From contig JANQFQ010000056.1 in the NCBI GenBank assembly GCA_028277765.1, positions 1-64,000 of the forward strand: DNA of 64,000 nt, written 5' to 3'. The position numbers and the translations under genes were made by a program. The notes under the pieces are model-generated. The model saw nothing but the letters and a program-made list of their open reading frames with translations, made no database searches and had not been told where the DNA came from. Below are positions 1,969-41,146 of this stretch, piece after piece (positions within the stretch are counted from its first letter, which is position 1; each line of letters begins with the position of its first letter). This stretch comes from Desulfobacterales bacterium (GTDB lineage Bacteria > Desulfobacterota > Desulfobacteria > Desulfobacterales > SURF-7).

Positions 1969-4900
1969 ATGAAACCGACATATGAGGAACTTGAACAGCG
2001 GGTAAAGGATCTTGAGAAAGCCATGGCCGATGCCCGCGTTACAGAGGAAAGACTTCGTGAGAGCGAAGCTAAATTCAGGCTGATTTTTGAAAATGCCAAT
2101 GATGAGATCATACTCCTGAATAATGACGGCATCATTATTGATGTGAATAGTAAAATATATGATTTCTTCGGATACAGGCCTGAAGAAGTTGTTGGGAAGC
2201 ATTTTACTGAATTTGATGTTTTGAACACGGAAGATGAACAGATGAATATCCATTATTTTGAGGATATTATATCTGATAATTCAATTGGTTATTATGAATA
2301 TGAGGCGCCGCACAAAAACGGAAAGGAGAATGTCTTTGTAGAAGTAAATCCAGCACCCATAGAGATTAACGGTGAAGCCAAAGGTGTGCTGGCAATTGTG
2401 AGAAATATTACCAAAAGGAAAAAGGTAGAATCATCAGTAAGGGAAAGCGAAGAGAAATTGAGACTGATTTATGAAAATGCCAATGACACGATTGCTTTCC
2501 TGTCTGTCGACGGTGATGTCATTGATGTAAATAATAGAGTGTATGATCTTCTTGGGTATACGTATGAAGAGTTGGTCGGCAAAAATTTTGGTGAATTTGA
2601 TCTTTTTCAGGAGGAGGAGGAATTTGATAAAGCGTTTACGTTTCTACAAGAGATTGTAGCTGGGGAACCAGCACCTATGTTGGAGTTTGATGTTTTACGA
2701 AAAGACGGTACCATGATTATTATTGAGGGGAATGCCCGTGTGATCAAAAAAAATGGTGATGTGCAGGGGGTCATCATTATTCTCAGGGATATAACTGAAC
2801 GTATACAATCAGAGCTGACAATCCGTGAGAGAGAAGAAAAATTCAGGATGATTTTTGAAAATGCCAATGATGTTATCGCATATGTGGATATGAATGGACA
2901 GATAACTGATGTAAATAGAAGGATGTTTGACGTTTTTGGGTTTACGAGTGAAGAAGTGATTGGAAAGCATTATACAGAGGCGGGATTTTTAACTTCTGAA
3001 AATATTCCAATGTCTGAGGAACTTTTTGAAGAGTTTATGACAGGAGAGGATATTCCAATCATAGATTTTAGCGGTACACGAAAGGATAACAAGGAGATTT
3101 ATATCGAAGTAAGCCCCAGGCTTATAAAGCAGGATGGAAAAATGCAGGGTATTCTTGCTGTCATCCGGGATGTCACAGAGCGTAAACTCGTGGAGGCAGA
3201 ACTCCGGGAGAGTGAAGAGAAATTCAGACTGATTTTTGAGAATGCCTATGATGAGATTATTTATGTGGCTAGAGATGGCACAGCAATTGATGTCAACAAG
3301 AAGGTTGAAGAAATTTTTGGATATAAGCGTGAGGAGATTGTCGGGAGAAACCTGAGAGAGTTTACTTTTTTTGATGCAGATGAGTTTAAACGTGCGGAAA
3401 AGTTGTTTAATGATGCACTGTCAGGCGATCCAACAGAGATAAGGGAATTCAAGGCGCGTCACAGGGATGGCACGCCCATCTATATCAGTGCGAGCTCAAC
3501 CCTTGTCAAGAGAGGGGGAGAGCCAGAGGGAGTTTTAAGCATTGTCAGAGACATCACCGAGCAAAAAAAGACAGAGAAGATCCTTAAGGAGAGTGAAGAA
3601 AAGTTTAAGCTGATCTTTGAAAAAGCCAATGACGCGATTTTCTATTTTGATAAAAACGGCGTACTTATAGACGCGAACAGTAAAACATTTGACCTGCTAG
3701 GATACAAAAAGGAAGAGACAATAGGAAAAAAAATATCAGAATTCAACCATATTAAGCCCAATGATATCGAAGATGTTGAAGCGGTTTTTAAGGCAGCGGT
3801 TAATGGTGAAACCGTGCCGATGTTTGAAATGGAGCTTTTGCACCGGGATGGAACACCGGTTTTTATTGAAGCGAACTCAAGTGTCATCGGAGAGAATGGC
3901 TGGATAGAGGGGCTTGTTGTTATTGTGCGGGATATCACGGACCGGAGAAAGGCTGAAGCAAAATTGCGTGAGAGCGAAGAGAGATTTAAAACAATTTTTA
4001 ACAGTGCCAATGATGCTATTATCAACATTGATATCAACGGGATGGTTGTAGACGCCAATGAAAAGGCCTTTGAGTTGTTTGGATATAATCCAGAAGAAGT
4101 GTTGGGAGAAAATTTTGCAAAGTTCACTTTCATGAAGCCTGAAGACATGGAGAAGGCTATCAATATATTTAATGATGTAATGAGTGGCCAGCCAGCCCAA
4201 ATGCAGGAATTGCAGATTTACAGGAGAGATGGGACGCCTGTATATGTGGAAGCGAATGCGAGACTTGTCAGGCAGGGCGGGAAGATTCGGGGTCTGCTGA
4301 ACATCCTGAGGGATATCACTGAACGGAAACGAGCGGAAAAGGCCCTGAAGGAAAGCGAGGCCATGCTTGTAAACGCCCAGAGGGTTGCCCGGTTGGGGAC
4401 CTGGCACCTGGATTTTACTACAAACAAGCTTTCCTGGTCTGATGAACTGTATAGGCTTTGTAAAAGAACGAAAGAGGAAGGCCCTATAGAATTTGATAAC
4501 TGGGTGGAGCTCATCCATCCGGATGATATGGAATCTGTATCAAAATGGTTTCAGAATGCGGTTGACATCGGAGTGGAATACAGTCTGGACAGCCGTCTTA
4601 TTTGCACGGACGGTGAAATCCGATATATTCATTCTGAGGTTGAGGTGAGGAGGGATGAAGCCGGCAATCCAATAGGTGTGCTTGGCACAGCACTTGATAT
4701 TACGAAAAGAAAGAAAGCTGAAGAGGCGCTTATAGAGAGCGAAGAAAGATTTAAGATGATCTTCGAGAATGCAAATGATGTAATCGTTTACGTGGATATT
4801 TCAGGAATTATTATTGATGCAAACGCGAAGATTGAGGCTTTTGGATATACTCGTGACGAGGTAATTGGCAGAAACTTCACAGAGTTTAAAATATTCAATC

Positions 4901-34949: not shown

Positions 34950-34993
34950 AATTTATATGTTTTTTAGGGATGATTGTTTTATAACATTAAGGA

Positions 34994-35470
34994 TCACCGG
35001 CACGAAGAATGAGCGCCAGGTGTATCCGTTTGTTGGGATTTGATTTCATCGGGATCGAAATCGCTATCGAGATCGAAATCGAATTGCGCGGTTCCATAGG
35101 AAGCGCATTCTTCCTTTACGCAATAGCCCCGACCGCCCAATCGGCTGAGCATTGCGGCAATACGATCCAATTCAATCTTTCGTTCCAGGCTTTCTTCGCG
35201 GTCGAGAGCCTTGCCAACTACCAGAACATCCTGAATCGCCGCGCATTCCAATGCCGAACTGCGTGCGATTTCGAAATACCGTCTTCGATCCGCCTTTGTT
35301 GCCTTGCCGTTACTTTCGGCAATATTTAACGGAATAGATTGACTGGCACGAAGCCACTGCTCCCGTGCTGACCGATGAATTCCTGTCAGAAATTCCGCCT
35401 TTTCATAGACCCATGCCACGTAATTTATCGCCAAGCGGCAAACATCCAGTTTTTCGTGTCCTAGCCCCAT
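34994..35470 (-). CDS. Four-helix-bundle protein, 23S rRNA intervening-sequence (IVS/S23) type
   Basis: ATG 35470 (MGLGHEKLDVC) was chosen since family members begin with H/E-x-L-D-V near the start; the frame is open 36 codons further but those are Asn/Arg-rich repeat translation. The 158-residue protein has the family motifs YVAWVYEKAE, LRASQSIPLNIAESNGK and RRRYFEIARSSALECAA. Members form a four-helix bundle. Their role is not established; relatives include the diversity-generating retroelement accessory factor Avd. The tail is Asp-rich (DFDLDSDFDPDE), coded by GATCGAAATCG-type repeats, and similar tracts in inverted order flank the start (35470-35515). A shortened relative with the same start and end sequences is found at 37660-37760, so the unit may be mobile. 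Confidence 0.82.
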   Translation of the reverse strand: MGLGHEKLDVCRLAINYVAWVYEKAEFLTGIHRSAREQWLRASQSIPLNIAESNGKATKADRRRYFEIARSSALECAAIQDVLVVGKALDREESLERKIELDRIAAMLSRLGGRGYCVKEECASYGTAQFDFDLDSDFDPDEIKSQQTDTPGAHSSCR

Positions 35471-35640
35471 GTCTTTTCGATTTCGATAGCGACCCCGATT
35501 TCGATTCTCCCAACCTTTAGAATTAATGGTTATCGTAGTTTTAGAGGAAAACCTGCTTTGCTGAACTATATAACTCATAATAATATTTATGTTAATTTAT
35601 TGATAAAAAGTCAACTTTATTTTATGCAAATTTTCAGAGT
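35471..35640. other. Region upstream of the IVS-type gene with GAAATCG tracts
   Basis: Bases 35474-35510 repeat CGATTTCGAT and CCGATTTCGATTC, the complement of the tract at 35050-35085 on the other side of the gene. The rest is AT-rich. No gene is recognised. Confidence 0.5.
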
Positions 35641-35644
35641 GAAA

Positions 35645-36140
35645 AAGAAAGTGCTTAAAGTATAAGTGCCTAAAGTGCGCTAAAGTGCCTTAAGTTGTGG
35701 TATTGCTTCGCTCTATCATTTTTAAAAATTCGTGGTCAGCAATAAGGGCAGTGATCAGTAATCAGTTTCCAGTATCTGGTTTATAGTATCCCCGCTAAAG
35801 AGAAGCGGGATCTTTGACAAGTATCTAGAGTGGTCGAGGTCGGGTTTGAATAAGTGATCAGTTTTACCACGACAATCTCCCCCAGCCCCTCTTTGCTAAA
35901 GAGGGGAGCAAAAATCTTCCCCTTTTTCAAAGGGGGATCGAGAGGCAAGATGGTTTTTATCATTATAAAGGTTCCCCCTTTTTCAAAGGGGGGTTAGGGG
36001 GGATTATAAGACAAGCATACATTCATAATAAATGATCAGCTTTCAAAAAAACCGTGGTCGTGGTCAGCAAAGCGGTGGTCGTGATCGGGTTTAAAAAAGT
36101 GCGCTAAAGCGCCTTGTATTGCTTCCCCTCTATCATAAAA
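35645..36140. repeat. Dispersed intergenic repeat cluster 2 (includes long direct-repeat copy 1)
   Basis: Begins with module A (35648-35730: AAGTGCCTAAAGTGCGC.., ATTGCTTCGCTCT). At 35763-36060 lies the long copy 1: CCCGCT/AGCGGG hairpin, TCTTTGACAAGTATC, the CCCCTCTTTGCTAAAGAGGGG hairpin, the CCCCCTTTTTCAAAGGGGG palindrome pair and GACAAGCATACATTCAT. It closes with GTGGTCGTGGTC units and a degenerate module A (36097-36140). Near-identical copy 2 lies at 47789-48080. No coding frame is conserved between the copies. Confidence 0.88.
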
Positions 36141-37521: not shown

Positions 37522-37528
37522 GGTATTT

Positions 37529-37630
37529 AAGTGCCTAAAGTGTTTAAAGTGCGCTAAAGTGCCTAAAGTTGATGTATCGCTTCTCTCTGACTGGATCTCA
37601 GTAGGGTGGGCTTTGCCCACCAATTGTCCA
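37529..37630. repeat. Dispersed intergenic repeat cluster 3
   Basis: Module A in plus orientation starts at about 37529 (AAGTGCCTAAAGTG.., GTATCGCTTCTCTCTGACTGG to 37590). It is followed by the palindrome GTAGGGTGGGCTTTGCCCACC (37602-37622), the same family as at 17069 and 48094. Confidence 0.82.
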
Positions 37631-37775
37631 AATCGAAATCGTGACCAAAGGAAATCCCGTGGGGGAAAGACATGGGGTTTGGACACGAAAAATTGATGGA
37701 ACCGAGCCATTCGATCCCGATCCCGATGAAACAACGTCCCAATAAACGGATACACCGGACAAAAATACCTTAACT
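37631..37775 (+). pseudogene. Miniature, internally deleted relative of the IVS-type four-helix-bundle gene
   Basis: Read on the plus strand, 37665-37692 (AAAGACATGGGGTTTGGACA, then CGAAAAA) matches the start of the gene at 35470 (AAAGACATGGGGCTAGGACA). Directly after it, 37695-37760 (ATGGAACCGAGCCATTCGAT, then ..CCCGATGAAACA.. and AAACGGATACACC) matches the last ~70 bases of the same gene. All that lies between, about 130 codons, is gone. GAAATCG tracts also flank the start. The joined frame could make a 33-residue peptide (MGFGHEKLMEPS..), out of frame with the old tail. This is the pattern of a non-autonomous deletion derivative. Confidence 0.72.
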
Positions 37776-37830
37776 TCGATATTCGGATTTGAACTGACGT
37801 GCGGGGTTTCCCCGCTCAAGCCACTCAGTC

Positions 37831-38286: not shown

Positions 38287-38398
38287 ATATAAGATCTAGG
38301 TCCAGATGGTTTTAAGCTGAGAACATAGGAATAAAAGGATAAACAGTATCATTGGTTTAAGTTGGTCGAATTAGTTAGATTTGTTAATATTAATATTA

Positions 38399-38451
38399 GA
38401 ACCAAAAAACCAATAAACCAATAAAACCAATAAAACCAATGAAACCAAAAT
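38399..38451. repeat. Short tandem repeat AAACCAAT
   Basis: About six imperfect units of AATAAAACC (CCAATAAAACCAATAAAACC and variants) lie just past the stop of the molybdopterin enzyme gene. Copy number could vary by slippage. Confidence 0.7.
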
Positions 38452-40762: not shown

Positions 40763-41146
40763 TTAAGTGCCTAAGTTACAAGTGCCTAAAGTTATAAGTG
40801 CCTTAAGTTAATGTATGGCTTCGCTCTGCCAGTTTTTAAAAGGAATCGTGGCCGTGGTAGTGATCGAAGGAAGATTTTGCTTGTTTCTATTCTATTTTAC
40901 AATTTGGTAGAGGCGATCCTTGTGATCGCCTTTTGTCGATTTAATAATTAAAATTATTCGTGCGCAAAAATGGGCGAATACAAGATTCGCCCATTCTTCG
41001 GTAAATGCATTTTCGCATGCCTCTGTCGATCACGACCACCGCTCCCTCTGGTCGCTGACAACGACCACGGTTACTTTAAAATTGGCAGAGCGAAGCGATA
41101 CATTAACTTAAGGCACTTATAACTTGTAACTTAAGGCACTTATAAT
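40763..41146. repeat. Dispersed repeat cluster 4 with long inverted ends
   Basis: The left end carries module A in plus orientation (40764-40840: AAGTGCCTTAAGTTAATGTA, TTCGCTCTGCCAG) and the right end carries it in minus orientation (41080-41146: GCAGAGCGAAGCGATACATT, AACTTAAGGCACTT). The GTGGTCGTGATCG module follows on both sides, so about 100 bases of the ends are inverted copies. The middle has the palindromes GGCGATCCTTGTGATCGCC (40912-40930) and GGGCGAATACAAGATTCGCCC (40974-40994). It abuts the stop codon of the FGGY kinase gene. No gene is seen in the 454 bp gap. Confidence 0.85.

Follow-up and report, generated by a model that had tools for sequence, protein, structure and literature searches.

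The window analysed here, a 64,000-nucleotide stretch from a Desulfobacterales bacterium (contig JANQFQ010000056.1), raises the question of why a short segment at 37631-37775 carries remnants of a four-helix-bundle (4HB) gene lying 2 kb away, and how it came to be there. A preliminary description held that the segment joins both ends of the gene at 34994-35470, in opposite orientation, and a repeat search of the window confirmed this. Positions 37666-37695 pair with the gene start (35447-35476, 90%), 37696-37727 with 35066-35097 (84%), and 37712-37756 with the gene end (35019-35063, 84%), all of them inverted. We also found two features missing from that description, namely an extra stretch of about 35 bp (GTGACC..GGGGGAA) that is absent from the window's full-length gene, and a left end that is a different palindrome (37601-37621).

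The full-length gene (34994-35470, minus strand) encodes a 23S_rRNA_IVP protein (PF05635, 63.9 bits; TIGR02436, 57.5 bits) running from MGLGHEKLD.. to an Asp-rich tail, and its open frame extends to 35578. Among solved structures, the sole credible relative of this protein is 2gsc (XCC0516). Relatives 70-80% identical were found in Desulfobacterota, Verrucomicrobia, Lentisphaerae, Planctomycetota, Acidobacteriota, Gammaproteobacteria and others, and this wide distribution speaks for horizontal spread of the gene; a plasmid search returned no match. The gene lies between two hexamer arms on the minus strand. The upstream arm, (NNATCG)n, is located at 35474-35507 and is 83% complementary to 35054-35083, and the downstream arm, (CGATNN)n, is located at 35048-35083 and codes the Asp-rich tail.

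We searched the window's genome (G000; 4.89 Mb, 156 contigs, 92% complete) with the miniature. The 181-bp segment matches at least 25 other places at E<=6e-9, and this count is a lower bound, since first-look candidates were only partly scored. Thus about 25 copies stand against four PF05635 genes, the only ones detected by the profile search, and the other three lack hexamer tracts. Across the genome we counted 110 occurrences of the tract pattern ATCGNNATCGNNATCG and 0 of its reversed control. The match is not due solely to the GAAATCG tracts, because most copies match across a non-repetitive centre (GTGACCAAAGGAAATCCCGTGGGGAAAAGACATGGG..GGACACGAAAAA) that includes a remnant of the gene start. 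The miniatures therefore form a multi-copy family. The copies in the window sit between protein genes. Where the ends are intact, the first bases are TTGGGAG or TTGGGAA, and the copy closes with ..CCTTAACG about 60 bp past the right tract. Of 11 left ends, 9 have a G immediately before them, and 8 of 11 right ends run on into TT.

Integron attC sites are defined by two pairs of boxes, R''/R' and L''/L', together with a bulged base. The right end of the miniatures reads TCCCAAC AAAC GGATgCACCGG ..loop.. GCCGGTGATCC TTAACG TT, and these elements are present in ten miniatures and in the full-length copy, which identifies the right end of intact copies, at the level of sequence, as an integron attC site. 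The same right end is present at 4HB loci from other phyla. In an alignment of 14 right ends, 77% of the cells are paired, compared with 34-41% for slid partners, and compensatory changes exceed those in shuffles only moderately. When folded, the bottom strands adopt the attC structure and do so better than shuffles. For detection we used a covariance model built from these right ends, after a home-made detector had been dropped because of many false pairs. The model identified 13 genome sites at E<3e-4, eleven of them on the miniature and cassette family (ten miniatures and the full-length copy) and one on a diverged right end at C26. Seven of the 11 family sites belong to the training set or are close copies thereof, and four (C3, C38, C69, C80) are independent. 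The remaining site, at C150:1746-1802 (L228), is a canonical-looking attC of an unrelated cassette and the only other attC found in the genome.

The flanks of the copies are dispersed palindromic repeats that are also present without the cassette elsewhere in the genome. A search of 40 relatives' genomes for strain-level empty sites gave tract matches only, so the empty-site comparison used paralogous repeats inside the genome. The flanks of three copies were joined by script and aligned to cassette-free repeats, and they align through the junction at 78-82% identity (C156 and C69 with repeat X, C3 with repeat Y). The inserts are 186, 240 and 180 bp at C156, C69 and C3, respectively. The junctions at C156 and C3 are exactly G/TT (the slash marks the crossover), and at C69, which carries an extra palindrome, TC replaces TT in a decayed form. 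No target duplication beyond the GTT core was found at any of the three sites. At C65 and C72, the left flank alone matches repeat X. One copy of repeat X without a cassette lies within the window at 40906-40991 (plus strand), where G/TT reads A/TT. Integron integrases cross over at G/TT, and simple GTT points elsewhere serve them as well (PMC10127599).

The preliminary description had viewed the segment as a non-autonomous element with transposon-like ends. Its view of a non-autonomous deletion derivative is borne out, and the derivative proved to be multi-copy, with precise insertion points and empty sites elsewhere in the genome. The transposon-like ends are not supported, as intact copies show neither terminal inverted repeats nor a duplication beyond the GTT core and end in the attC hairpin. 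We propose that the family of 37631-37775 very probably consists of ORF-less integron cassettes derived from a four-helix-bundle gene cassette. The parent cassette would begin with TTGGGAG, carry the PF05635 gene between complementary hexamer arms and end with attC. An internal deletion would have removed the gene and kept the arms and attC, and an integron integrase in trans would then have distributed the resulting unit of about 180 bp over the chromosome by joining the attC of excised cassettes to G/TT points. The full-length cassette of the window occupies 34985-35513 (minus strand), from G/TTGGGAG to TTAATG/TT, and its borders match those of other copies. Its attC (34980-35038, minus strand) scores 75.8 bits with the covariance model, whose training set includes it, and folds as attC. 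The predicted recombining end of intact copies is this attC hairpin downstream of the stop codon.

We found the counterpart of this cassette in Rhodopirellula solitaria and Neorhodopirellula, where near-identical copies occupy different sites with sharp borders (G/TTCTGGC..GGCAACCG/TT). The model, trained with all Rhodopirellula and Neorhodopirellula sites excluded, finds several attC per locus in both. Across 80 4HB loci, 31 of the 33 attC hits lie on the strand of the 4HB gene, in agreement with an attC downstream of the gene and in its orientation. One array (L135) contains two 4HB cassettes, and at another locus (L128) an integron integrase (482-1864, 413 bits) lies near the 4HB gene (3037-3555), within the same genome. 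Because of these multi-attC arrays and the L128 integrase, the PF05635-type gene is a cassette in real integrons of Rhodopirellula.

No integron integrase above the TIGR02249 cut-off was found in the window's genome, which is 92% complete. Integrase-free attC sites are known, so the missing integrase does not exclude cassettes. The movement would have been driven by an IntI that has since been lost from the genome or is missing in the assembly. Loss is plausible, because 54 of 96 genomes sampled from the window's order have IntI. This equally high background led us to reject co-occurrence of IntI with the 4HB gene (22 of 38 4HB-bearing genomes) as evidence.

The two arms around the gene follow a rule of their own. 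The tract before the start and the tract coding the Asp-rich tail are reverse complements (NNATCG and CGATNN), and both arms co-vary in other lineages (GTGCTC/GAGCAC, GTACTC/GAGTAC, GTAATC/GATTAC, GTGATC/GATCAC, GTATTC/GAATAC). Mean complementarity was 19.8 for the lineages' own pairs, compared with 12.3 for mismatched and 7.5 for shuffled pairs. The full-length transcript has a computed fold z of -4.05, and the arm stem pairs in this fold. In 29 PF05635 loci of the phylum, chosen solely on profile score, own pairs scored 18.1 and mismatched pairs 8.5. After the addition of 17 further loci, a flank score of at least 14 was reached by 33 of 46 PF05635 loci (L031-L034, L297-L344), compared with 6 of 1121 control windows (0.5%) from the same loci (p = 3e-28, nominal, since neighbouring control windows overlap). 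Each gene has its own word, e.g. AAAATCCGAAATCC, AACCAATC, AGTGAAT or TAGCAGT. Complementary tandem-word arms are thus general among PF05635 genes. Most likely they pair into an IVS-like RNA stem that encloses the gene, comparable to the Coxiella 23S rRNA intervening sequence (IVS), in which an S23p gene lies in the loop of a 28-bp stem (PMC4990558). The arms are not the recombination sites. It had been suggested earlier that the Asp-rich tail is a mobile part; this is not supported, as the tail codes one arm of a stem, and this stem is also found in copies without attC.

Hexamer hairpins also travel in other elements. In the relative G035 they are part of elements that have GGCATCCTTCAT (GGCATCC..GGATGCC) as terminal repeats and are flanked by 8-bp target duplications; we identified five distinct copies with at most one mismatch each (L187 1201-1344; L189 1436-1582; L205 1446-1579; L206 1435-1578; L050 1405-1560). 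The window's genome contains CTAG-bounded elements with a central hexamer hairpin and without attC (C96, C120, C48, C53, C82; L174-L179), and minimal forms of these retain one or two hexamers in two copies (L276, L277). Hexamer tract matches number 465 in G118 and 1024 in G035 (overlapping), compared with two and three PF05635 genes, and G118, a single contig of 3.9 Mb, gave no integrase match. The tracts of G118 at first seemed biased to one strand, but this proved to be an artefact of match order, with plus-strand places alone displayed, and was discarded. Since hexamer hairpins also ride the terminal-repeat elements of G035 and the CTAG-bounded elements, integron cassettes are one of at least two vehicles.

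An alternative explanation is that the 4HB stem-loop is itself a self-mobile, IVS-like element entering hairpin-forming DNA or RNA, with integron cassettes as only one host. The generality of the complementary arms, the hairpins inside several kinds of palindromic repeats and the 23S rRNA intervening sequences of the same plan (PMC4990558) would fit such an element. However, it is at TTGGGAG and attC, beyond the arms, that copies in the window's genome have their precise borders, and a bare stem-loop insertion with an empty site was not found; we consider this explanation unlikely. Still less likely is that the miniatures are ordinary MITEs, in which the hexamer arms would be the ends and a DDE transposase would act on terminal inverted repeats. 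The G035 hairpins, with their terminal repeats and target duplications, do have the properties of MITEs, and the palindrome GTAGGGTGGGC flanks both sides in some copies of the window's genome, but the attC-bearing copies have unlike ends without terminal repeats and, at the three empty-site comparisons, no duplication beyond GTT, which refutes this origin for them. Chance rearrangement or decay of a single copy without any family would suit the window copy, which has lost part of each end and lies next to other repeats, but is extremely improbable given about 25 dispersed copies with a common non-repetitive centre and precise insertions at three sites.

Within the cassette family, the window copy itself (37627-37758, plus strand) is a degraded member. 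Sequence, genome search and repeat search delimit it as remnant tracts, the gene-start remnant, the right arm and a truncated attC. In the broken attC (37737-37758, plus strand), R'' (TCCCAAT) and L'' (GGATACACCGG) are present, and the loop and L' are lost; the copy is absent among the covariance model's 14 attC matches in the genome. The palindrome GTAGGGTGGGCTTTGCCCACC (37601-37621) takes the place of the cassette's left end. Because its attC is broken and its left end replaced, the window copy is a dead relic, unable to move by the attC route. About a dozen copies share the palindrome in place of the usual left end, and attC is missing from several; the family may therefore also have spread by a second route. 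We observed GTAGGGTGGGC..GCCCACC at the very left end of numerous miniatures, where it stands in for TTGGGAG, including at 37601-37621.

Several known systems resemble this family in part. Cassette insertion at genomic attG sites is reportedly the subject of Loot et al. 2024 (as cited in PMC11023631). Cassettes at such secondary sites share attC structure, gene and attC orientation, crossover at G/TT and single-point insertion without duplication, whereas the miniatures are gene-less, are amplified to about 25 dispersed copies and have no integrase left in the assembly. Clusters of attC sites lacking integrase (CALIN) likewise hold attC without IntI in the genome, but the attC sites of the miniatures are scattered single sites in dispersed repeats. 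MITEs are also short, non-autonomous, multi-copy deletion derivatives, unlike which the attC-bearing copies show neither terminal inverted repeats nor target duplication. The 23S rRNA intervening sequences with S23p (PF05635/TIGR02436) likewise have a four-helix-bundle gene as the loop between complementary, stem-forming ends; the gene here is intergenic rather than within a 23S rRNA gene, its arms are tandem repeat words, and integron recombination sites lie at its borders. Gene-less cassettes at G/TT over the chromosome would be the natural counterpart of experimental secondary-site insertions, and such a family would make the integron the engine of a MITE-like family. In the open-access literature, covered incompletely, we found no paper on dispersed gene-less G/TT cassettes or PF05635 word arms, and nothing relevant on 4HB or S23 genes as cassettes.

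PF05635 proteins have no known function, and the arm rule offers a handle on them. It also ties the free-standing members of the family to 23S rRNA intervening sequences, and it may account for a class of dispersed repeats. The existence of at least two vehicles leaves room for a broader reading, possible though somewhat doubtful, in which PF05635 genes as a rule occupy the loop of a hairpin of gene-specific tandem words, and their ORF-less arms, carried on several vehicles (integron cassettes, terminal-repeat elements), seed dispersed word repeats in many environmental bacterial genomes. If so, 23S rRNA intervening sequences and free-standing copies would together belong to a single class of mobile stem-loop elements.

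Other dispersed words in the window were also observed. The AAGTGCC words (35648-35714, 36096-36115, 37528-37588) resemble the arms of the PF05635 gene L032, the AACCAAT words (38398-38447) those of L301 and L302, and the TTCGATATTCGGATTT words (37783-37800) those of L034.
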